A program made the position numbers and the translations under genes. From positions 248,001-312,000 of the forward strand of contig NZ_OUMZ01000006.1 of the NCBI RefSeq assembly GCF_900327775.1: a stretch of 64,000 nucleotides of DNA, written 5' to 3'. Positions 33,416 through 52,045 of the stretch are shown piece by piece; position 1 is the stretch's first letter; each line of letters starts with the position of its first letter. The notes beneath the pieces are model-generated. The model was given only the letters and a program-made list of their open reading frames with translations. It was not told where the DNA came from and made no database searches. Origin of the DNA: Roseovarius sp. EL26. Its GTDB lineage: Bacteria > Pseudomonadota > Alphaproteobacteria > Rhodobacterales > Rhodobacteraceae.

Positions 33416-34393
33416 ATGACGCCATTCGCGGTTGCCGGAGTGCAAATGTATGTGAACGCATTGCATCCAAATGTCGATGGAATGATCCAAAGGCTGGATA
33501 TCCTGATGGCGCGCTTCCCGTGGACGCAGATGGTTCTATTCAGTGAATTGGCCCCTTATGGCCCGTTGTCGAAGTTTGCTCTGCCGCTGCAGAATGAGGC
33601 GATTGACCAATTTTGCGCAGCGGCGAAAAAGCACAATGTTTGGCTGATACCGGGATCGATGTTTGAAAAGACACCCGAAGGCAAGATTTACAACACCGCC
33701 ACCGTTATCAACCCCCAAGGCGAGGTGATCTCGACCTATCGCAAGATGTTTCCGTTCCGTCCCTACGAGGCGGGCGTAGAGGCAGGCACAGGATTTTGCG
33801 TCTTTGATGTGCCGGATGTGGGCCGGTTTGGCCTGTCGATCTGCTATGATATCTGGTTCCCGGAAACCACGCGCGAGTTGACCAGTCAGGGGGTCGAGGT
33901 GCTGTTGCATCCGGTTTTGACTGGCACCACTGACCGCGAGGCCGAACTGGCTATCGCCCGTGCAACAGCGGCGCAATTCCAGTGCTATGTGTTTGATGTC
34001 AACGGTTTGGGTGCGGGCGGCGTTGGCCGGTCTTGTGTGATCGACCCGACCGCGACCGTGTTACATCAATCCGCTGGGCAAGAGGATATGTTCCCGATTG
34101 AGTTGGATCTTGATATGGTTCGCCGCCAACGCGAGACGGGCATGAAAGGCTTGGGACAGGTGCTTAAGAGTTTCCGTGATCGGTCTGCTGATTTCTCGGT
34201 TTATGATCGTAATAGCGGCACAGATGCTTATCTGAAAACGCTTGGCCCACTTGAGACCCCACAGCAGGGTTCACGCGCTGGTATTCACGTTGATGTGCCA
34301 GCCGAGGCGGCCTCAACAGAAAGTTCACCAAATGACACCGCGGCAGCACCTGAAGGGGCGCTACCCTTTGCAGTTGATACCGTGAGTGGATGA
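33416..34393 (+). CDS. Carbon-nitrogen hydrolase (nitrilase superfamily)
   Basis: 325 residues with catalytic triad E44 (LFSELAPYG), K110 (YRKMFPF) and C143 (LSICYDIWFPE). It hydrolyses an amide or nitrile-type C-N bond. A tail of about 50 residues beyond the domain (TPQQGSRAGIHVDVPAEA...) is disordered and unlike most family members. It precedes the Orn/Lys/Arg decarboxylase gene by 57 bases on the same strand; a polyamine step such as N-carbamoylputrescine hydrolysis would fit but is an inference. Confidence 0.9.
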   Translation: MTPFAVAGVQMYVNALHPNVDGMIQRLDILMARFPWTQMVLFSELAPYGPLSKFALPLQNEAIDQFCAAAKKHNVWLIPGSMFEKTPEGKIYNTATVINPQGEVISTYRKMFPFRPYEAGVEAGTGFCVFDVPDVGRFGLSICYDIWFPETTRELTSQGVEVLLHPVLTGTTDREAELAIARATAAQFQCYVFDVNGLGAGGVGRSCVIDPTATVLHQSAGQEDMFPIELDLDMVRRQRETGMKGLGQVLKSFRDRSADFSVYDRNSGTDAYLKTLGPLETPQQGSRAGIHVDVPAEAASTESSPNDTAAAPEGALPFAVDTVSG

Positions 34394-34450: not shown

Positions 34451-37213
34451 ATGCAATCGATGGACGACTATTATTCGGCAGTTCAATTACGCAATGATCA
34501 TTGGAGTACTTTAAAAGAAGCGACTGCAGCACTGGCGCGCGACCCCAAGGGCAAGAACGCTGCAGCGCTGGCAGAAAAGATTGAAGACATTTTCGATTCA
34601 CTGGCGCTGGTAGAAGGGTATTGGGCCTTTCCGGGTGTGCAGGTCTTTGACCGGGTACGGCGACAGTACAACCACAAAAGCTATGACGACCTGGCCTTTA
34701 CGGTGCAACGCATTCTGCGGGCCTTGACCACAGGGGCTTATCGCCGCCGTCTGATCCCGCTTGAGCGTGACAGCGTTGACGTCGAAGAACACGAAGACGA
34801 AGCAACGCAATCTTTGGAAGCACGGTCGCTGGCCAAGCCCTATTTTGAGGTGATGGTGGTTGATGATCTTAATGAGCATCAAGAACATTGGCTGAAAAGC
34901 AACTTTGCCAAAATGCGCCGCCCGGAAGATCCGTTTCACTATGAGATGGTCACTGTGCCGAGCCTGCAGGATGCGCTGATTGGCATTCTGTTCAATCACA
35001 ACATTCAGGCCATCATTGTACGTCCCGGTCTGGTGCTGGAATCGCAGGTTCAGCTTAAATTGCTGACGCGTTATCTCAATCAGGCCAGCAGCGTTGAGGA
35101 CCTTGATGCGTTGGCGCCAGAGGATTATGGCCCAGAGCTGTGTCGCCTCATTGGACAGGTGCGGCCTGAGTTGGACGCCTATCTGGTGACAGAGCGTTCG
35201 GTTGAAGAGATTGCCGGCATGGATTTGGGGATCTGCCGGCGGGTGTTCTACAATCAAGAAGATTTCTCGGAACTGCACCTGAATATTTTGCGCGGGGTAC
35301 AGGCGCGTTTTAAAACGCCGTTTTTCACCGCGCTTGTCGAATATTCCAAGCAGCCAACCGGTGTGTTTCACGCGATGCCGATCAGTCGCGGAAAATCGAT
35401 TACGCGCAGCCATTGGATTCAAGATATGGGTGCGTTTTATGGCCCTAATATTTTTATGGCGGAAACCTCGGCCACGTCGGGGGGGCTTGATAGCCTGCTG
35501 GAACCGCACGGGCCGATCAAGGAAGCGCAGGAGTTGGCAAGCCGGGCATTTGGTTCAAAGCAAACGTTCTTTGCCACCAACGGTACATCGACCTGTAACA
35601 AGATCGTGGTGCAGGCGCTGGTGCGCCCTGGTGACATTGTCCTGGTAGACCGTGATTGTCACAAGTCGCACCACTACGGCATGGTTCTAGCCGGGGCGCA
35701 GGTGGTGTATCTGGATAGCTATCCGTTGAATGAATATTCGATGTATGGCGCGGTGCCTTTGCGTGAGATCAAGCATCAGCTTTTGCGGCTTAAGGCCGAG
35801 GGAAAGCTGGATCGGGTGCGGATGCTGTTGCTGACCAACTGTACTTTTGATGGGATCGTCTACAATGTTGAACGGATGATGGAAGAATGTCTCGCCATCA
35901 AATCTGATCTGGTCTTCTTGTGGGATGAGGCTTGGTTTGCCTTTGCACGCTTTGGCCCGATCTACCGACAACGTACGGCGATGAATGCGGCCAATAACCT
36001 GCGCGCTAAATTCAAAACCGATGCCTATGCAGCGGCTTACGAGGCGCAGCAAAAAGAGCTGGAAGGTGCGGACGAAGAGACGTTGTTGAACACGCGATTG
36101 CTGCCATCACCCAAGTCTCGAGTACGGGCATATGCTACACAATCGACGCATAAAACGCTGACATCTTTGCGGCAGGGATCGATGATTCATGTCAATGATC
36201 AGGACTTCAAAGGAGAAGTCGAGGCGAGTTTTCACGAGGCGTATATGACGCATACGTCGACCTCGCCTAATTATCAGATCATCGCGTCATTGGATGTTGG
36301 GCGACGTCAGGTTGAATTGGAAGGCTTTGAATTTGTCCAACGACAAGTCGAGGCGGCGATGTCGATGCGGCGCGCAATCTCGACCCATCCGAAGCTTAAG
36401 AAGTACTTCAAGGTCCTGACCTCGGGCGATATGATCCCCGAGGAGCATCGCGAAAGCGGCGTCACCAGCCATTATGACCCCGAGCAGGGTTGGACGGATA
36501 TCTGGGATTGCTGGCAAAACGATGAATTTGCCCTAGATGCCACACGTGTCACGCTGGCTGTCGGTGGCACAGGTTGGGACGGGGATACGTTTAAGACCAA
36601 GATTTTGATGGACAAATACGGCATCCAAATTAACAAAACCTCACGCAATACTGTATTATTCATGACCAACATCGGCACAACGCGATCTTCGGTCGCTTAT
36701 CTGATCGAGGTGCTGGTCGAGATCGCCAATGATCTGGATGATCTGTTGGATGATGCGTCAATGATGGAGCGGCGCGGGTTCGAAAAACGTGTTTCTAATC
36801 TGATGCATGATTTGCCGCCATTGCCGGATTTCAGCCGGTTCCATGATGGGTTCAGAACAGATCAGGCGACATCAGAAGGTGACATTCGATCTGCGTTCTT
36901 CCTGTCTTATGATGAGCAGAATTGTGATTATCTGGAGCTTGACGGTTCGGTCAAAGCGGCGATGGAAAGTGGTGATGAGGTGGTCTCAGCCTCGTTCATT
37001 ATCCCCTATCCACCCGGTTTCCCGATTCTTGTACCGGGTCAGGTTGTGAGCAAAGAAATCCTTGAATTTATGCGCGCGCTGGATGTGAGCGAAATTCATG
37101 GCTATCGCCCTGACCTAGGCCTGCGGGTATTTACGCAAGAGGCGCTCAAACAGCAGGTCAAAGCTAACGCTGCCCGGCTTAAATTGAATGCCGAACGTTA
37201 CAAAATCCAGTAA
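34451..37213 (+). CDS. Orn/Lys/Arg decarboxylase-family PLP enzyme (fold I)
   Basis: 920 residues. The PLP lysine is K568 in QSTHKTLTSLRQGSMI; HKSHHYGM and the WDEAWFAFARF Asp region are further signatures. A 300-residue N-terminal part (about 1-300) includes a CheY-like wing seen in large basic amino acid decarboxylases. It should decarboxylate ornithine, lysine or arginine, giving a polyamine; substrate unresolved. The total is longer than E. coli SpeC-type (about 720) and close to large variants. Cotranscription with the nitrilase is likely. Confidence 0.9.
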   Translation: MQSMDDYYSAVQLRNDHWSTLKEATAALARDPKGKNAAALAEKIEDIFDSLALVEGYWAFPGVQVFDRVRRQYNHKSYDDLAFTVQRILRALTTGAYRRRLIPLERDSVDVEEHEDEATQSLEARSLAKPYFEVMVVDDLNEHQEHWLKSNFAKMRRPEDPFHYEMVTVPSLQDALIGILFNHNIQAIIVRPGLVLESQVQLKLLTRYLNQASSVEDLDALAPEDYGPELCRLIGQVRPELDAYLVTERSVEEIAGMDLGICRRVFYNQEDFSELHLNILRGVQARFKTPFFTALVEYSKQPTGVFHAMPISRGKSITRSHWIQDMGAFYGPNIFMAETSATSGGLDSLLEPHGPIKEAQELASRAFGSKQTFFATNGTSTCNKIVVQALVRPGDIVLVDRDCHKSHHYGMVLAGAQVVYLDSYPLNEYSMYGAVPLREIKHQLLRLKAEGKLDRVRMLLLTNCTFDGIVYNVERMMEECLAIKSDLVFLWDEAWFAFARFGPIYRQRTAMNAANNLRAKFKTDAYAAAYEAQQKELEGADEETLLNTRLLPSPKSRVRAYATQSTHKTLTSLRQGSMIHVNDQDFKGEVEASFHEAYMTHTSTSPNYQIIASLDVGRRQVELEGFEFVQRQVEAAMSMRRAISTHPKLKKYFKVLTSGDMIPEEHRESGVTSHYDPEQGWTDIWDCWQNDEFALDATRVTLAVGGTGWDGDTFKTKILMDKYGIQINKTSRNTVLFMTNIGTTRSSVAYLIEVLVEIANDLDDLLDDASMMERRGFEKRVSNLMHDLPPLPDFSRFHDGFRTDQATSEGDIRSAFFLSYDEQNCDYLELDGSVKAAMESGDEVVSASFIIPYPPGFPILVPGQVVSKEILEFMRALDVSEIHGYRPDLGLRVFTQEALKQQVKANAARLKLNAERYKIQ

Positions 37214-37242: not shown

Positions 37243-40200
37243 TCAAGGGCGCGAGCGCACAGACGCGGGAACGGGGCGAGCCAACGAGACAGGAGCGTCT
37301 TCGGCCGTGATGCTGCCATCAAGTTCGACCTGAACGATCATGCCGCTGTGCAATTGATCCATATGGGTGCAGCCCACCAGCATCAGAATGTCACGTTCGC
37401 GCGCAACGATTGCCATATGGCTGAGCCAGCCGCCAATTTCACTGAGCACACCACCGGCCCGCTGAACCCATGGCAACCATGCGGGATTGACCATCCGACA
37501 GACAATGATGTCGCCGTCTTCAAATCCGTCAAAAACACTGGCATCTATGCGTGTCTCATCGGTGATGTGAAAAACGCGGGCCTTGATCGCTTGGCTGCCA
37601 GCCACACAGGTGCCGCCCATGCCCTCTTGATCATGATCACAGCCTGCAAGCGATGGGGCAGAAAGCCGCTCGCAATCTTGCAGGGTCAGGCTGATTTGAC
37701 TTGGGGCATGTTGGCGTAGCAATGCGGCCTGATCTTTGCGGTGCTGTGTCTTTGACCGAATGATTGCAGGATCAATGTCATCAAGCGTTTCTAGTTCATC
37801 CATCTCAAGCTGAAAAATCAGGTCGGACAAATCCGCCTTATCTGACAGTGCTACAATTGCACGACGCAACTGAGCAAATGTTTTAAGGGCCTCGTGCTTG
37901 GCCTGTTCCTTGAGGTCCTGATATGCAACCGCCAGATCCACTGGATTGTCCGGGTTCAGGACAGGGGCCCCGGCTTCGTTGGCAGCCAATGGCATTGCGC
38001 TGTCCAGCAAAGGCCAGAGCAGCGCAGGCGTTTCATTGTAACGGGGAATGCTCAGCTCATAATCAAAGATCGCCCGGTGTCCCATCTGCGCCAGTAAGGC
38101 GGGTTTTTGTTCTGCCGGTGGTAACGCCGCGCAAGCATCTATCAGACGGATCGGGGTATGATGAAGAACTGGATGTTGCAGGCGTTCATGTATCTCTGCA
38201 TCATGAATGGCCAGTGTCTCGGCCTCATTAAGGGTAAAGCCTGCGATGATATTGATTTTTTCAGCCTCGACGTAGACCTCGGTGACCAGCTTGTCTTGCA
38301 AGGCGGTGATCGTTTCAATCAGTTGCTTTTGCGGCAAAGCTGCAAAGTCCAACGCCTGCCAATATGCCAAATCATTGGCCAATTTCGGGATGAATTTGGT
38401 GCGAAATTCTGTGATGATCTGCGGGGCCATCTTGCGTAGCTGCCGCGCTTTGGGCTTGCTCAGTCGTAGGGTCAGGCCGGTTTTTAACTGCTGATCGACA
38501 TAGGTACGACCAAAGAGATTGACCAAATACTCTGGCGGTCCTTCGGGCAGGTTATACCCTACACCAAGGGCCCGGCAGGCGAGATCAACACTACCGCCGG
38601 GGGACCAGATCCGCGACATGAGGGAAAATGATAACGGCGTTGGCTGTGGAAGAACCTCTGACATCTCATCTTGTTCCAGAATGACCGCATCTGCAGGGGC
38701 GTCTTTATAGGTGGCCAATATGCGTTGCCATTCTGCATTGCGCGCCAATTGGGCCGGATCACGCGCTGCCAGCGTTGTGATATCACGGCTTTGCACGATG
38801 TGGAATGTGCCATTTGCATAAGCCCATTCGATGTCTTGCGGACATCCGATCAGCGTTTCGATTTGGTGACCCAGCATAATCAGAGGAGTCAGATCCATCG
38901 GCGTTAGTTTAGTGTCTATTGCAGCCAAACTATGCCGCCCAAACCGCAGGCTTTGCGGTGTGACGCGCCCGGAAACCAGATCATCACCGTTGCCCTTGAC
39001 CAGTTCGATCATCATCAGGCCGGGCGCGGTTGGGTCTTGGGTAAACATGACGCCAGCATAATCCGGGCTGATCATGCGCTGCACCAGAATATTGCCGTCA
39101 TGTACCACCGGGCCATTATTGTCGTAACTGGCCGCGCGTTGGGATGAAAACGAGGCAATCACCGTATCAAGTGCGGCACGTAAGCTGTGTTCGGTGACAT
39201 CCAGCACGCTGTCAAACACGCCAGCGTAGCTATTGTCAGCACCATCTTCGCTTGCGGCGGAACTGCGCACGGCGCAGGGGTTTGGGCCGACCTGTCGCCA
39301 GATTTTGCTTGCAAAAGCTGTTTTATCAGCGTCCGACATCGCGCCAAATTGGGCAATGGCACTGGACCTGATGACTAGCCCATCGGGCACTGGCAGGCCC
39401 GCATTTTTCAGCAATGACAAGCGATAAGATTTGTTACCACTACCCTGAAGTGACGCGCTTAAGCGCAGGGGAATAACTCCCTTGGGTAATCTAGAGTCGA
39501 CTCTATATTGGCTGAATTCCTCAAATTTTCGAGACATCCTACCCGGAAATCCAGTTACATAGGCGCGTTGGATGAGCAACAGTATCAGGCTGATACACAG
39601 GTAGATATTGCCAGCCGCGCTTAGGCCACATGTCAGAGCAAACAAAAGCGGCGTGCCAATGGCCCACCAGATCATTGCCTGACGTCTCGTTTTGGCGACG
39701 GCCCAGTGCAAATAAACCCCGCCCAAAGCCGAAAACAAGATGGGCAAGGCATATGTGCTGTCAGGCAGACCAAGCTGCTGTATCCAAAGAAAATGATCTG
39801 TGGTGTTTTTCCCGGCCTGCCCAGTGGCGCTGAGCCCCAGCATCATGATCGGTAGAAACAATAACGCGGTCAGATTGCGCATCGGGGTCAGGCCGTTGTC
39901 GGTATAAAATTGCTGCACTGCACGGGCCTTGCGCACCGGATCGTGTCTTAGTTTCTGTTTCAGTGTGGTGAATTCATTGGCATGTTGTGCTGTGGTGATT
40001 TGATCGCGTTCAGATTTAAGCGCGATTGGCAAAACGAGCAGGCGCGACAGCAGCGATAACATCAACAGCCCAACGACAAAATGAGAGTGCTTGCCAACCC
40101 ATGTCAGGGCACTGGCAAGCGCGCCAACAGCTTTGTCCCACAGGGTGGCTTGTTGGGCTGCCAACCAGGCCTCAACATGAGGTTTGGGCTTGGGGGGGAT

Positions 40201-41313
40201 AAAAAACTCCCAAGGTGTTGTGTAGCGGCCTTGAAAATCGATGCCTGCCTCGCTCATCTCTAACCCCAGTACCTGCGCCATGAAACAGCTGCGCCGGTCG
40301 TAGCAGGCGGCAATCGTTGGCTTGTCTTGTAGCTGCGCGATGCGTTTTTTCAGCTCATCCGTCGGCAGGGCGCGGATCGGTATGTTGATCGCACCAGGCA
40401 AATGTCCGGTGGCAAAATCACCTGGATAACGTGTGTCGACGATCTGCAAATCTGACTTTGTTGTTAGCTCTTTGAACTGTTTGGTTCCGATCAGGACGTT
40501 CTTGTTGGGATAGTTGGGGATTGCGCGCAGATCGGACAGGGTTTTGACGGCCTTGTCGCTAAAGGGTTTGCCCTCAACAATCCATTTTTCGATGCCACCA
40601 GCGATGAAGCGGCAATCAATCCCGCGCGCTGCCAGTTCAGCGCAGGTTTCACTGCTTCTGTTGCCGTTGTGGCAAAACAGGACGACCTGCTTACCTTCAA
40701 ACGCCAGATCGGATTGCAGGAAATCGGGAAATCGCACGTGTTGCGCCCCGGGCAAAGTGCCCATCCGATGTTCGCCCGCTTCACGTACGTCGAAAAAAGC
40801 GGTGGTCGTTGTGCTGTCTTGTGTCAGCAAGCGCTGGGCGACTTGTGTGGTGATGGCCAGAGGGCTTGTTGATTGTTTACTAAAATTGGTTTCCTTAAGA
40901 TTTTTATCTTTTATGGCTTGCCCGTCAAACTGCGCCGGGCGCACTAAAGTGGCCTGAAGGCGTGTCTGGTTTTCTGACTTTTGCGTCTGGTGTTGCCACA
41001 TATTGAGGGCACCTAACGCAACAACAATGCCAACGAGGCTGAGGATCAACCGAATAGGATAGCGCCGCGTTCCACCCTTGGAGGCGGGCGTGTATCCAAA
41101 CCGCCTCGCGAAAAGGGTCGCTGTCCCTGTCAGGGTTGCAAAAGCAACGGCAAAGACTTGAGATAATGAAGAAACAGAACCGATCACAAGCTCCGGAGAA
41201 GGGATGGCAAATGCGGGTTTTGGCGTCAGCATAACCATGCAAACTAGCGCGATCAGGCCTAGATGATTTAACAAATGAAAAGCAGAATGGTCCCCTGTTT
41301 TTGGGTTGGTCAT
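37243..41313 (-). CDS. Fusion: double rhodanese, YidC/Oxa1-like membrane domain and PEP-synthase-like phosphotransferase
   Basis: 1356 residues on one uninterrupted frame. N-terminal signal-like and membrane helices (about 13-105). Rhodanese 1 (about 150-255) with active C214 in CHNGNRS. Rhodanese 2 (about 265-365) with C337 and C343 in CYDRRSC. A YidC/Oxa1-like domain (about 385-610) with R424 at the start of the groove helix (LLSRLLVLPIALKS). A PPDK N-terminal ATP-grasp (about 625-865: RLSLLKNAGLPVPDGLVIRS, AVRSSAASEDG). A helical mid-domain (about 870-1235) and a C-terminal phosphohistidine domain with H1299 in GGWLSHMAIVARERD. The catalytic residues I can see are intact. There is no PEP-binding barrel, so the architecture resembles rifampin phosphotransferase more than PEP synthase. 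Substrate unknown; fusion of all these parts is not a family I know. Confidence 0.85.
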   Translation of the reverse strand: MTNPKTGDHSAFHLLNHLGLIALVCMVMLTPKPAFAIPSPELVIGSVSSLSQVFAVAFATLTGTATLFARRFGYTPASKGGTRRYPIRLILSLVGIVVALGALNMWQHQTQKSENQTRLQATLVRPAQFDGQAIKDKNLKETNFSKQSTSPLAITTQVAQRLLTQDSTTTTAFFDVREAGEHRMGTLPGAQHVRFPDFLQSDLAFEGKQVVLFCHNGNRSSETCAELAARGIDCRFIAGGIEKWIVEGKPFSDKAVKTLSDLRAIPNYPNKNVLIGTKQFKELTTKSDLQIVDTRYPGDFATGHLPGAINIPIRALPTDELKKRIAQLQDKPTIAACYDRRSCFMAQVLGLEMSEAGIDFQGRYTTPWEFFIPPKPKPHVEAWLAAQQATLWDKAVGALASALTWVGKHSHFVVGLLMLSLLSRLLVLPIALKSERDQITTAQHANEFTTLKQKLRHDPVRKARAVQQFYTDNGLTPMRNLTALLFLPIMMLGLSATGQAGKNTTDHFLWIQQLGLPDSTYALPILFSALGGVYLHWAVAKTRRQAMIWWAIGTPLLFALTCGLSAAGNIYLCISLILLLIQRAYVTGFPGRMSRKFEEFSQYRVDSRLPKGVIPLRLSASLQGSGNKSYRLSLLKNAGLPVPDGLVIRSSAIAQFGAMSDADKTAFASKIWRQVGPNPCAVRSSAASEDGADNSYAGVFDSVLDVTEHSLRAALDTVIASFSSQRAASYDNNGPVVHDGNILVQRMISPDYAGVMFTQDPTAPGLMMIELVKGNGDDLVSGRVTPQSLRFGRHSLAAIDTKLTPMDLTPLIMLGHQIETLIGCPQDIEWAYANGTFHIVQSRDITTLAARDPAQLARNAEWQRILATYKDAPADAVILEQDEMSEVLPQPTPLSFSLMSRIWSPGGSVDLACRALGVGYNLPEGPPEYLVNLFGRTYVDQQLKTGLTLRLSKPKARQLRKMAPQIITEFRTKFIPKLANDLAYWQALDFAALPQKQLIETITALQDKLVTEVYVEAEKINIIAGFTLNEAETLAIHDAEIHERLQHPVLHHTPIRLIDACAALPPAEQKPALLAQMGHRAIFDYELSIPRYNETPALLWPLLDSAMPLAANEAGAPVLNPDNPVDLAVAYQDLKEQAKHEALKTFAQLRRAIVALSDKADLSDLIFQLEMDELETLDDIDPAIIRSKTQHRKDQAALLRQHAPSQISLTLQDCERLSAPSLAGCDHDQEGMGGTCVAGSQAIKARVFHITDETRIDASVFDGFEDGDIIVCRMVNPAWLPWVQRAGGVLSEIGGWLSHMAIVARERDILMLVGCTHMDQLHSGMIVQVELDGSITAEDAPVSLARPVPASVRSRP

Positions 41314-41550
41314 GGCGAGCCGCCTTGTTTGATTAATGTAAAATTCAACTATTAAGAGATGAAATTTGTTAATAAATCATTTATGAAATAATTGGTTAAC
41401 GGATGGCGCGATCTGTTGGAGAAAATCAGATGCACCCAGGCGTTGTGAAATCACATTAACGAAGTCTTTTGATTTATCGGGACATAATCGGCGAAAGAAT
41501 CCCTTTTGGTGCTTTGACTTGCGCCTCTTTTAAAGACCGAGGACTGCCCA

Positions 41551-47672: not shown

Positions 47673-48935
47673 TCAGGCGGTCACATCCAGTTGCGAGTGA
47701 TGCGCCGGTTTATTGACATGTTGGTTGCGGTCTTCATCCATCAACGCATCGACTAATATGCAGGCCTCATAATGTTTTAGGCGAAGATGGGAGGTTTTCG
47801 CTTTTGATTTGTTCTGTGCCAAGACCTCGTGCATTTGATTTCGAGTACTTTCGAGAGACAAAAGCGCAAGATCGCCAGCAAAGAAGCTTTCAGATGGATG
47901 TTCGTTGGAATAGACCGCCTGATGGTCGTCCAATAGCAGATGATAATACGTCACCTGCTGCGGCTTGGTAATTTTGTGAACACCGGGCAGACCGAGCAGA
48001 TCTTTGGCCGCAACAAATACCTCGTATTCGCCAAAAAGCAGCTCACAAACGGGGTGGGCAATCAAAACATGATGCAGTTGCGAGACGAAAAGGTCTTTGG
48101 TGTTATTGAGTGCGTTTTCCTCGATTCGGATGGGAAGCGCGTCTTCATAGGCAAAATAACGTGAGCGAAGAACCTGGATCAGTGGCTGAAAGCCATTTCC
48201 GAGGGTTGCAATCATGTCTCCTTTGCGCAGCCATTGAACTGGCTTTTGTCCTAGATCCGTCTCAATTAGGGTGTGTTCAAGGAAACACACGACCTCTGTG
48301 CCTTTTACGAATATGTCCCAGATTCCATCCGGGCTATCAGGGTCAAGGTCTGTGGTCGGAAGGTTCAAAAGGTCACTGGCATTGCCTGATCCTGGGGCAA
48401 TAAGATCATTGCTGCCTCCGTCGGTGACGCCAACTTGTGCCTGAGCTCCGAAGCCATTTGAGAATTCGATATTTTCATAGATGAATTCAATGCCAACCGT
48501 GCCGTCGCCCAAACTGGAAAGTACAACCTGAAACGTGTTGTTGCCCGTACTACTGAAGGCTTCAACGTCGAACCAAGTTATCGTGACCTTGCCGTTGATT
48601 GGATCGATATCCCAGTAAATATTATTGCTGCCAGTTGCACTGCCACCGCTGACGTTAACATCCGTCCAGAACGGGGCTATAGCGGGTTCAGTCAAGGTGG
48701 AAAGATCTGGTGCGTTAAAGGTGGTATTCGGGCCGGTAAAAGTGATCAGGCCGTTACTGTTAATGTATATGCTGTTGTACGTCGTGCCGAAGAAATTCAA
48801 GCCGCCTGAAAAAACAGAGGTAATGTCTACTTCAACAGATCCGTCATCCAGATTTCCCGCGTCAAGAGACGATCCGATGAAGCTGTTTTCACCGTGTCCT
48901 GTTGGGCCACCTAGGCCTGTGTTTACAGGAGCCAT
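47673..48935 (-). CDS. NIDO and Hint (hedgehog/intein-like) domain secreted protein
   Basis: 420 residues. N-terminal part is a nidogen-like (NIDO) beta domain (about 20-205: SIYINSNGLITFTG, FWTDVNVSGGS). The Hint domain starts at C217 (VVCFLEHTLIET) and carries the HHVLI motif (LFVSQLHHVLIAHP), characteristic of the Hint_2 proteins common in Rhodobacterales. No clear signal peptide; export by a type I system or other route is possible. Whether it self-cleaves is not evident: the expected residue before the C is V. Function unknown. Confidence 0.85.
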   Translation of the reverse strand: MAPVNTGLGGPTGHGENSFIGSSLDAGNLDDGSVEVDITSVFSGGLNFFGTTYNSIYINSNGLITFTGPNTTFNAPDLSTLTEPAIAPFWTDVNVSGGSATGSNNIYWDIDPINGKVTITWFDVEAFSSTGNNTFQVVLSSLGDGTVGIEFIYENIEFSNGFGAQAQVGVTDGGSNDLIAPGSGNASDLLNLPTTDLDPDSPDGIWDIFVKGTEVVCFLEHTLIETDLGQKPVQWLRKGDMIATLGNGFQPLIQVLRSRYFAYEDALPIRIEENALNNTKDLFVSQLHHVLIAHPVCELLFGEYEVFVAAKDLLGLPGVHKITKPQQVTYYHLLLDDHQAVYSNEHPSESFFAGDLALLSLESTRNQMHEVLAQNKSKAKTSHLRLKHYEACILVDALMDEDRNQHVNKPAHHSQLDVTA

Positions 48936-49504: not shown

Positions 49505-51082
49505 CTAATCGGCAAAAAGGTGATCGGGTTGTGTAATGTCTAACGCAGTATCGTGCGGCACTGCAAGAAAACGAGAGATCTGCTGTGCCATATGTTCAGC
49601 TGTATCAGACTGGCGCAGGATCAGGTGATTTTCAAATTCTGCATCCCGTATTTGATCGCTTTCGAAATTGATGTCCCGGCGAATGGTCGGCAGCAGCCGG
49701 GATAGATTGCCTTCAGGGGTTTGTTCCCCTGCCAATCCAACACGTTTGGCATGGCCTTTCAGGTAGTCATCGTTGAAATCACATTGTATCTCAAGCAGCC
49801 TGGTGATGCAGCGATCGCCGCAGAAATCCTGTAACAATTCAATGTTGGCGGGATCAACACAAATCAGCAACCTGTCGTTTCCGTGATACTCAAACAACAT
49901 GCGCAGCAGCGCCCGGCGATGGCGCATGCGTTTGTGTAAACGGGCCTGGATCCCGCCGAGATCCGGCAAGTCTGTGCTGTCTTCGTTGAACAGGTAATCG
50001 ATCGCGGGCACATCAGTATGTTGGCGGATGCGCGCGTTCAGCCGCTTGGCAACGTGCCATTTTTTACACACGACGATCATCAATTCGCGGTCTCGGCCCA
50101 GAGTGCTTTCGGTTTCCCAGAACCGGCTGGCAAATCGACGGCCAATGCGCCCGCGACCGGTAAGAAATTTGAATAAGTTGCGCCCTTCGTTCGAAATTTG
50201 GAATTGCATATCGCTTGCGGCGTACATTTTGCCCAGCCGTTCTTTCAGCTCGTGTGCTTCTGGGCTGATTTTGCGGGCAAACAGGTAATTTTGTGACAGC
50301 AATAGATCATAGTGATCATTGTAGAAGGTGACAGGCATGCCATAGTCGCTGAACATCAAAAAGGTCAGGGTGCGCGCATGAATCTCGGTTTCTGGAATTA
50401 GATGGCGCACCAAGGTTTGAAAGAAAGTTTCATCTGGAATCCAGGTGGAACGGAAAAACTTCATCACGTCCCGTCTCTGGCGTGTAAACTCCAGTATAGC
50501 CTCGATTGTTCGACGTCGCAGACACCACCATTGGCTGCCGATCTGAATCTGCAAATCCTCGGGGATTTTCCGGGTTAAGCCAAGTTTCTCTTGGATGGCC
50601 ATGCTGGCATAAAATGCGCGTTTGTGTTTGCGCTCGTTCAGAAAGTGGCGGTAGATTAGGCGTTCTTCCTTGATGCCGGTTTTGATCCAGTTGCTGTCGA
50701 AGAAATCAAAACTTTCTATGTAATCGGCGTCTTCTGCATCCAGAAAATCATGTGCATAGTTAGCAGATTTTATGGCAGCGCAATCGCCGGACAGCATGTA
50801 AAAATGCGTCGCGCGAGGAAACGCTTCGCAGGCAGCCTCGACCGCATGAAGTGTGGCTTGCACCAATGACCATTCGCCCCAGCCGCATTTGACCCTTTTC
50901 TTGGCAAAGGTCACATTAGGATTGTCTGACAATGCGGTTTTGATTTTCTGGAAATGCGCGGGCTTTGCGCGGGCGTCAAAATGGATCGCTATGCAATCCC
51001 CTTTTGTCGTCAGCATATTGGCCTGTTCAATGATCGCGTCCGGATCTTTGTGGCATAAAAGGATAAAAGCGATTTTCGCCAT
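49505..51082 (-). CDS. GT14-like glycosyltransferase (core-2/I-branching type)
   Basis: 525 residues. The N-terminal domain matches GT14 (core-2/I-branching, xylosyltransferase-type) enzymes: IAFILLCHKDPDAI, IHFDARAKP, SGDCAAIKS, WWCLRRRTI, WIPDETFFQTLVR. The C-terminal 200 residues (from about 320) have no domain that I recognise. It would add sugar to a polysaccharide or glycoconjugate. It diverges from a sulfotransferase gene with 90 bases between; together they suggest a sulfated surface glycan, an inference. Confidence 0.85.
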   Translation of the reverse strand: MAKIAFILLCHKDPDAIIEQANMLTTKGDCIAIHFDARAKPAHFQKIKTALSDNPNVTFAKKRVKCGWGEWSLVQATLHAVEAACEAFPRATHFYMLSGDCAAIKSANYAHDFLDAEDADYIESFDFFDSNWIKTGIKEERLIYRHFLNERKHKRAFYASMAIQEKLGLTRKIPEDLQIQIGSQWWCLRRRTIEAILEFTRQRRDVMKFFRSTWIPDETFFQTLVRHLIPETEIHARTLTFLMFSDYGMPVTFYNDHYDLLLSQNYLFARKISPEAHELKERLGKMYAASDMQFQISNEGRNLFKFLTGRGRIGRRFASRFWETESTLGRDRELMIVVCKKWHVAKRLNARIRQHTDVPAIDYLFNEDSTDLPDLGGIQARLHKRMRHRRALLRMLFEYHGNDRLLICVDPANIELLQDFCGDRCITRLLEIQCDFNDDYLKGHAKRVGLAGEQTPEGNLSRLLPTIRRDINFESDQIRDAEFENHLILRQSDTAEHMAQQISRFLAVPHDTALDITQPDHLFAD

Positions 51083-51172: not shown

Positions 51173-52045
51173 ATGATTAGAAAATTTAAAGCCGCACGAA
51201 CGGCTAAAAGTACGGAGGCAGCAGTCATGGGATTCCCTGGAACATGGATGACTGAAAGTGAAAGCATGGTGTACCGGGTTGTACCGAAGTGCGCTTGTTC
51301 GACCATTGGTCAGATCATGTATTATTCTGACCATGGAGAGTTTTTTGACGGCGATATTCATGATGCGACCGGAAAACTGCACAAATGGGCGCTTGACCAC
51401 AGTCAGCCGTTGATCCAAGCGAATGTCACAGCGCATAAATCCTATGCCTTTACCTGCGTGCGCAATCCTTACACGCGCATTCTGTCCAGCTTTTTTGATA
51501 AAATCTGTGGCATTCAGCGCAACGGCAATCGGTATCGTGGGAAAATGGTTCCGTTGTTGATGCAGAAATACGGGATCGAAGTGGGCGGCGATGATGGCAA
51601 GCAAGAGTTTGACCAGATCAAAAGCTTCCGCCGTTTCTTGCTGTTTGCCCGAGACACCATTCGTTGGCGCCGGCCCATGGACCCGGATATTCACTGGTCT
51701 GCGCAGGCCGGGCATGTTGCAACCTTTGTCTTAAATGGTGGGACCTACGATAAGATTTTCTGGACCGAGCAATTCAATGACGGCATGGATCAGGTGCTAA
51801 GTTCAATTGATACGCCGCATAAGGTCGACATCAACGCCATTCCGCGGTTCAACGAATCTGAGGGTCACGGCCCCAAGCGCGCCCATCCGGTCGAAGATTA
51901 TTTCGACGATCTGTCGATGCATCTGGTCTATGAGATGTACAAACGCGATTTCGACCTGTTCAAATATGATTTCTTTGACCCATCCAACAAAATGCCAGTG
52001 GGTGAGATCGATCTGAACGAGGTGCACGCCAAGCTGGGTGAATAG
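51173..52045 (+). CDS. Sulfotransferase family 2 protein
   Basis: 290 residues. PAPS-binding 5'-phosphosulfate motif is likely VPKCACSTI (about residues 40-48) and the 3'-phosphate segment FTCVRNPYTRILSSFFDKI. The family includes carbohydrate sulfotransferases. The gene diverges from a GT14-like glycosyltransferase; a shared surface glycan is plausible. ATG 51173 has a weak ribosome site; ATG 51227 (MGFPGTWM) is an alternative. Confidence 0.85.
   Translation: MIRKFKAARTAKSTEAAVMGFPGTWMTESESMVYRVVPKCACSTIGQIMYYSDHGEFFDGDIHDATGKLHKWALDHSQPLIQANVTAHKSYAFTCVRNPYTRILSSFFDKICGIQRNGNRYRGKMVPLLMQKYGIEVGGDDGKQEFDQIKSFRRFLLFARDTIRWRRPMDPDIHWSAQAGHVATFVLNGGTYDKIFWTEQFNDGMDQVLSSIDTPHKVDINAIPRFNESEGHGPKRAHPVEDYFDDLSMHLVYEMYKRDFDLFKYDFFDPSNKMPVGEIDLNEVHAKLGE

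Follow-up and report, generated by a model that had tools for sequence, protein, structure and literature searches.

A tandem rhodanese, an Oxa1/YidC-fold core and a rifampin phosphotransferase-like dikinase in one protein, co-occurring with a PhnD/PtxB-type binding protein

Insertase activity is what Oxa1/YidC proteins are known for. The groove of YidC is hydrophilic, and its hydration is aided by a conserved charge (PMC8920935, excerpt). Rifampin phosphotransferase (RPH) and the dikinase HpeHI phosphorylate small molecules by means of a swivelling histidine (PMC4844700 and PMC12167813, excerpts), while binding proteins such as AioX, ArxX and ArrX can begin oxyanion signalling (PMC5908839, excerpt). 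Here, we describe a locus of Roseovarius sp. EL26 in which relatives of these parts are found together. The window, i.e. the whole stretch of DNA that was analysed, comprises 64,000 nucleotides (contig NZ_OUMZ01000006.1, positions 248,001 to 312,000), and the gene in question encodes a fusion protein of two rhodaneses, an Oxa1/YidC-fold membrane core and an RPH-like dikinase, beside genes for a PhnD/PtxB-type periplasmic binding protein and a membrane receptor. Each single domain is already known. In the open-licence literature, we found no described protein or system combining rhodanese, YidC/Oxa1 and dikinase, as a preliminary description made from the sequence had anticipated, and none combining a PhnD-type binding protein, a histidine kinase and a rhodanese; as far as this literature was searched, the combination is new. 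To our knowledge, the triad as a whole resembles no other system, nor did we find one.

The fusion protein and its family

The fusion gene has the coordinates given in the preliminary description, which named no strand. It lies on the minus strand and runs from 41313 to 37243 with an ATG start, 1356 codons and no internal stop; the plus-strand reading of the same interval meets 38 stops. A few bases 5' of the ATG, AAGGCGG is a possible ribosome site. The proposed two rhodaneses, YidC/Oxa1-like domain and kinase were borne out by Pfam, which returned, in this order, Rhodanese (two stretches, 4.9e-23), 60KD_IMP (residues 413-586, 1.4e-10, 41.9 bits vs a gathering score of 35), PPDK_N (residues 675-803, 5.9e-34) and PEP-utilizers (residues 1264-1329, 1.7e-16). 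The best NCBIfam matches (best 25 of 50) were kinases of the phosphoenolpyruvate (PEP)-synthase/RPH/prodigiosin-ligase group, all far under their cut-offs.

Conservation was read from an alignment of 26 fusion proteins, two of which end at a contig end. The third codon position is the most variable in every part of the fusion, in comparison with Roseovarius albus and with Pseudophaeobacter alike. Against R. albus, synonymous changes exceed non-synonymous ones in six of seven parts, the exception being the N-terminal 110 residues, and the second rhodanese has changed least at the first two codon positions; against the more distant Pseudophaeobacter, synonymous changes prevail only in the two rhodanese parts. 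The two rhodaneses, the Oxa1/YidC-fold core and the RPH-like dikinase are one unbroken protein of 1356 residues.

This protein represents a family that is spread over distant bacteria and kept whole, with the fusion in one frame in the loci read. A scan with one genome per species found, among the matches listed, at least four relatives matched over most of the length, with best-segment identities of 74 % (R. albus), 58 % (Pseudophaeobacter), 34 % (a Granulosicoccaceae metagenome-assembled genome) and 36 % (a Planctomycetota metagenome-assembled genome, in which the protein ends at a contig end). Using a profile of the N-terminal half (E 1e-30 or better; sampled genomes in overlapping sets, the centre genome counted), the fusion was found in 4/397 genomes of the phylum sample, 8/294 of the phylum of locus L005, 3/274 of the class of locus L004 and 10/295 of the family, own genome included, which answers the call for homologues in other Rhodobacterales. 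From these, 24 fusion genomes were taken forward for neighbourhood comparison. A DNA search within the genus matched 3 of 60, own genome included, so that the distribution is patchy. Among plasmids, 94 records matched and 82 covered at least 80 % of the N-terminal 619 residues; the genus counts given with the 94 records, i.e. 59 from Phaeobacter, 17 from Leisingera, three from Tritonibacter, two from Parasedimentitalea and one from Ruegeria, add up to 82 as well. All 20 plasmid rows among the matches listed are annotated as 'PEP/pyruvate-binding domain-containing protein', a name that hides the fusion family. No relatives were found in viral contigs in a scan with the N-terminal half of the L004 protein.

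In a tree made by a quick method with midpoint root, no mixture model and long-branch warnings, from which the L128 protein was left out as too short, 25 fused proteins group together by their kinase halves (SH-aLRT 100) relative to 66 unfused kinases. By sequence, this fits a single fusion event.

Domains, conserved residues and predicted topology

The signal-like hydrophobic start of the fusion ends near a conserved A-I-P-S-P motif (residues 36-40), of which I37, P38 and P40 are kept in all 26 rows, and is followed by two more hydrophobic stretches (about 42-68 and 87-105), which a positive loop separates. This loop, the C1 hairpin of the core and loop 538-551 are net positive in 26/26 rows, and the mean charge over these rows is -7.9 for the rhodanese stretch and -2.0 for loop 499-519. 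Under the positive-inside rule, this pattern predicts a periplasmic location for the rhodaneses, where YidC has its periplasmic domain, and a cytoplasmic one for the kinase; hydropathy and charge likewise support, as a prediction, the membrane tethering proposed before.

Like other tandem rhodaneses and sulfurtransferases (PF00581), the fusion has two such domains, the pair differing in being predicted periplasmic and part of a kinase protein. The first has a canonical loop, i.e. a six-residue active-site Cys loop with Arg, in which C214 and R219 are present in 26/26 rows. The loop of the second, C-Y-D-[RK]-R-[SG], departs from the canonical form: Y338, D339 and R341 are present in 26/26 rows, and Cys stands at 337 in 25 rows, with Gly in the remaining one. 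Given this Gly, found in one relative (L128:1-2796, minus strand), the second rhodanese might be a binding and not a reacting domain. Of the key residues previously named as intact, C214, C337, R424 and H1299 stand at their positions; C343 is also where it was placed, but it is not a conserved catalytic residue, being Cys in 18 and Ser in eight of 26 rows. The structure model of the rhodanese part is weak (pLDDT 54), and its VIA list was taken up by the first rhodanese.

The membrane core belongs to the Oxa1/YidC superfamily, judging from the Pfam 60KD_IMP score, the Oxa1 fold and the positive groove residue. Its predicted fold superposes on YidC, and it shares the five-helix core and C1 hairpin of the YidC/Oxa1 insertases (PF02096; PDB 6al2, 3wo7). 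R424, P429 and Y571 are kept in 26/26 rows. In the genome's own YidC, the position of R424 is held by the groove Lys (in an alignment of four YidC loci, the L102 row being left out), which upholds the proposed place of this Arg in a YidC-like groove, and the idea that the segment might be an unrelated helix bundle failed on sequence and structure alike. The core lies under the NCBIfam yidC_oxa1_cterm cut-off (41.1 vs 84.3 bits), a separate normal YidC of 613 amino acids is encoded elsewhere in the genome and, unlike in YidC, no P1 domain was found in the fusion, the rhodaneses occupying that place. At the position of YidC's conserved charge, the fusion has a positive groove residue; since the YidC groove is hydrated and charged (PMC8920935, excerpt), a part of R424 in handling a polar substrate would make physical sense. 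One relative from the Planctomycetota-group sample (L122:6624-10730, minus strand) has most of the C1 hairpin absent and retains R424 and the conserved Tyr.

The kinase part has the layout of RPH from Listeria (RPH-Lm; PDB 5hv1, 5hv3, 5fbs) and of the two-part HpeHI, i.e. an ATP-grasp, a substrate domain and a C-terminal swivel His; unlike in these, it is attached to a membrane core and rhodaneses. The His domain is C-terminal, not central as in PEP synthase and PPDK, and no Pfam match follows it, so that the PEP/pyruvate barrel of these enzymes is absent. This RPH-type layout, agreed upon by Pfam, phmmer and profile comparison, is the ATP-grasp PPDK half with a phosphohistidine domain and no PEP barrel that had first been described. 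A single-sequence phmmer comparison of the fusion with 5fbs gave E 6.4e-25, and a profile of five fused and 52 unfused kinases matched 5hv1 end to end (E 3.6e-257). The RPH equivalog cut-off of NCBIfam is not reached (124.4 vs 999 bits). By sequence comparison, then, we place the kinase among the RPH-like dikinases and the core in the Oxa1 superfamily, while the whole fails both the RPH and the YidC cut-offs.

In Listeria RPH, Lys22, Arg117 and His825 are catalytic and Arg666-Glu667 serve the second transfer (PMC4844700, excerpt). The equivalents of the former three are K628, R683 and H1299; K628, R683, E829, Q841 and R843 of the ATP-grasp are kept in 26/26 rows, and H1299 in 24/24 rows long enough to include it. 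The pair aligned with Arg666-Glu667 is Lys-Glu, with K1135 in 24/24 rows and E1136 as Glu in 22 and Asp in two of 24. In 48 of 52 unfused relatives, the K1135 position is held by the Arg of an R-E-x-x-K stretch, an Arg equated with RPH Arg666 by this spacing, and Lys at this position is, in these alignments, a mark of the fused clade.

Table 1. Fusion gene, its parts and the adjoining features (positions in the window; parts by residue number of the fusion)
Feature	Position	Strand	Remarks
Fusion gene	37243..41313	minus	1356 amino acids, tandem rhodanese - Oxa1/YidC core - RPH-like dikinase; one frame in 26 aligned rows
Swivel phosphohistidine domain, about 1235-1335	37309..37611	minus	PEP-utilizers; H1299
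RPH-like substrate-binding domain, about 855-1230	37624..38751	minus	GHR 1078-1080, K1135-E1136-x-x-K1139-H
ATP-grasp half, about 605-850	38764..39501	minus	PPDK_N; K628, R683, E829, Q841, R843; predicted cytoplasmic
Oxa1/YidC-fold core, about 400-590	39544..40116	minus	Five hydrophobic helices, positive C1 hairpin, groove R424 and Y571
Rhodanese 2, about 270-378	40180..40506	minus	Unusual loop C337-Y-D-[RK]-R-[SG]; predicted periplasmic
Rhodanese 1, about 150-255	40549..40866	minus	Loop C214-H-N-G-N-R219; predicted periplasmic
Residues 1-110	40984..41313	minus	Signal-like hydrophobic start and two more hydrophobic segments; hydropathy and charge, 26 rows
Divergent intergenic region, 237 bases	41314..41550		Between fusion gene and binding-protein gene; compared with 10 others
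PhnD/PtxB-type periplasmic binding protein, 292 amino acids	41551..42429	plus	PF12974 1.8e-43; R101, STIGR 161-165, RHD 190-192
Membrane hybrid histidine kinase, 754 amino acids	42429..44693	plus	HisKA-HATPase-REC-REC; receptor partner

The binding protein, the receptor and their ligand

In the loci read, a binding protein and a membrane receptor adjoin the fusion, divergently or in tandem. In the laboratory strain Phaeobacter inhibens DSM 17395, the three genes are PGA1_RS19240 (fusion), PGA1_RS19235 (binding protein) and PGA1_RS19230 (kinase). Both are adjacent to it in 18 of the 24 fusion genomes. The binding protein lies away from the fusion in five (in G251, G780 and G931 beside a histidine kinase), with G474 and G733 holding it only as pieces at contig ends, and one genome (G1221) has the fusion without a binding protein and with a kinase and a LuxR-type regulator beside it. 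Among the 295 family genomes, the binding protein occurs in 11 and the fusion in 10, all 10 being shared (p 9e-18, a value that treats related genomes as independent in a sample of about one genome per genus). In the 229-genome sample of the class of L004, the binding protein occurs in four genomes, two of them with the fusion. When plasmids were searched for the binding protein, 83 records matched, distributed over the genera as for the fusion apart from one additional Pseudorhodobacter, the records being compared as totals. The fusion and the binding protein co-occur nearly completely, even where the genes are unlinked.

The N-terminal input region of the receptor is recognisably common to 20 of 21 receptors read, in L128 over its second half only, and is missing in L130, which comes from the one fusion genome without the binding protein. 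The output differs, i.e. histidine kinase-REC-REC in the window and L004, histidine kinase-REC-histidine kinase in L125, histidine kinase-REC in L122, histidine kinase alone in L124 and GGDEF-EAL in L129. In the last case (L129:3603-6128, minus strand), the GGDEF-EAL protein bears the input region beside binding protein and fusion, so that this sensor input is common to two-component and cyclic di-GMP outputs. Since the output varies, the constant set consists of binding protein, receptor input and fusion; as the output is exchangeable and the input and fusion are conserved, the fusion is most probably active on the side of the ligand, rather than being a regulated target. Neither this set nor the spread of the family was part of the preliminary description. 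Like the AioX-AioS, ArxX and ArrX systems, the triad pairs a PhnD-family binding protein with an adjacent membrane sensor kinase; unlike them, its further partner is the fusion enzyme (PMC5908839, excerpt).

The binding protein is of the PhnD/PtxB type by PF12974 and by its closest solved structures, which are phosphonate-, phosphite- or phosphate-binding, or ArrX by name. Its closest relatives among them are 5jvb, named as phosphonate-binding (3e-25), and the phosphite-binding PtxB, 5o2j (3.5e-22), with HtxB and ArrX lower among the matches. In comparison with 5jvb, a Tyr, a His and an Ala are replaced by Arg101, Arg165 and Arg190, respectively, and the third Ser by Ile163, and Ser161, Thr162 and His191 are retained; R101, STIGR 161-165 and RHD 190-192 are invariant in 12/12 rows and kept in at least 95 % of 20 rows. 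The AioX pocket is formed by Tyr88, Cys106, Tyr131, Ser161, Ser163, His192 and Asp210 (PMC5908839, excerpt). Comparison with this pocket, made via 5jvb and not AioX itself, shows the third Ser as Ile and one His kept. Given the phosphonate- and phosphite-binding relatives and the added Arg residues at or beside the aligned pocket motifs, the basic pocket suggests a small, multiply charged anion as ligand. The rhodaneses suggest sulfur in it, and a sulfur or phosphorus oxyanion is plausible. The sulfur-containing or lipid substrate put forward in the preliminary description would be conjectural.

Links to arsenic and to tropodithietic acid, the latter presumably belonging to the Phaeobacter plasmid type of these records, were also considered, but no gene for either is named in five annotated plasmid regions. 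A zinc link was rejected as well: zinc-uptake genes lie beside the kinase in these five regions, but not among the adjoining open reading frames in the window or in the R. albus locus (L002), and they are therefore not part of the unit.

A TTAA-N7-[GT]TA[AG] site, which we take to be CtrA-like, is present in 8 of 11 intergenic regions vs 0.65 expected. These sites, of the form TTAA-N7-GTA[AG], lie 5' of the fusion start in L003, L081, L082, L112, L116, L117, L118 and L121, and 69-75 bases away from it in six. The site is not found in the intergenic region of the window or of L002, and we therefore claim no regulation for the window's fusion gene.

Possible function and neighbouring genes

The likely role of the fusion is to handle the ligand, as the enzyme within a sensory unit of three proteins that also comprises the binding protein and the receptor. 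Its role in both substrate entry and phosphorylation is the best-placed reading, although we put it at somewhat less than even. The binding protein would capture a small, multiply charged anion, the tandem rhodanese might read or transfer sulfur on the captured compound or its carrier, and the hydrated groove of the Oxa1 core would be the way in; swivelling H1299, charged from ATP, would then phosphorylate the arriving molecule and so trap or inactivate it, while the receptor would report the same ligand to the lineage's own output, i.e. a two-component kinase or a cyclic di-GMP enzyme. Going beyond the observed architecture, one-frame conservation, kept catalytic and groove residues, predicted folds and co-occurrence, we infer this chain from binding protein through rhodaneses and groove to kinase.

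Group translocation by the phosphotransferase system (PTS) offers a functional analogy. As there, a membrane part is combined with a swivelling phosphohistidine kinase and could couple entry to phosphorylation; unlike the PTS, to which it is non-homologous as a system, the fusion has an ATP dikinase and an Oxa1 fold. One may speculate that an Oxa1-superfamily protein serves here as an entry path for a small molecule and not as an insertase, in a single-chain, ATP-driven group translocation in which the rhodaneses prepare or recognise a sulfur or phosphorus compound, the groove admits it, the phosphohistidine phosphorylates it, and binding protein and receptor report it; in this full form, the idea is unlikely. 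If true, the predicted handling and phosphorylation of a small molecule at the membrane would put the insertase fold to a new use. In distant bacteria the fold itself, flanked by rhodaneses and a dikinase and linked to one type of sensor, retains its groove charge, and the co-inherited binding protein would be a genetic handle for finding one substrate of the fusion family.

The co-occurrence has counter-examples, the binding protein being present with no fusion found in G535, G1061, G1115 and a Pseudorhodobacter plasmid, and the stretch 108-126 is net positive as well (25/26 rows), mildly at odds with the predicted topology. In another reading, the Oxa1 core is only an anchor: a membrane-tethered RPH-like enzyme would phosphorylate a toxic small molecule, thereby inactivating it or initiating its degradation, and the sensor pair would act as inducer. 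Sensors are commonly encoded next to detoxification genes. Also in favour of this reading, the nearest kinases of known function, RPH and HpeHI, are both small-molecule kinases (PMC4844700 and PMC12167813, excerpts). We nevertheless consider a mere anchor somewhat unlikely, as it needs neither R424, P429 and Y571, retained in every row from distant groups, nor the rhodaneses, the second of which is the most constrained part, and as the binding protein is retained with the fusion even when unlinked.

That the fusion is instead an insertase devoted to the receptor or to some other partner, and controlled by the periplasmic redox or sulfur state through the rhodaneses and by ATP through the kinase, is distinctly improbable. 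The core does pass the Pfam cut-off and superpose on YidC, with R424 aligned to the groove Lys, and the receptor, adjacent in most fusion genomes, is a membrane protein; yet the genome has its normal YidC, the core falls short of the NCBIfam YidC cut-off, the L122 protein does without most of the C1 hairpin, and a full small-molecule kinase is hard to account for. Still less probable is a signalling relay, in which phosphate would pass from H1299 to the receptor histidine or REC domains, with the ATP-grasp and the rhodaneses setting the signal: a histidine kinase, mostly hybrid, adjoins the fusion in most loci read and swivel His domains of the PTS pass phosphate between proteins, but neither kinase nor REC domain was found in the GGDEF-EAL receptor of L129, and the RPH-type substrate domain is retained. 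Finally, the idea that separate genes were joined by chance or in error, such as the sequencing error raised in the preliminary description, is practically excluded, as no evidence for it was found and as the single frame in 26 rows, the grouping of the fused kinases and the annotation as one protein in the five plasmid regions all contradict it.

On the other side of the fusion gene, a 920-amino-acid Orn/Lys/Arg decarboxylase (34451-37213, plus strand) has a 93 % identical copy in R. albus, in the same place beside the fusion; together with a nitrilase-type gene (33416-34393), it adjoins the fusion in the window and in L002. Neither was found in the other six long loci searched (L003-L005 and L081-L083; L112-L131 were outside this search). 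Elsewhere in the window, a 420-amino-acid protein (47673-48935, minus strand) has a nidogen-like stretch followed by a Hint domain, and a Branch-type glycosyltransferase with DUF5928 (49505-51082, minus strand) lies near a sulfotransferase-family gene (51173-52045, plus strand).

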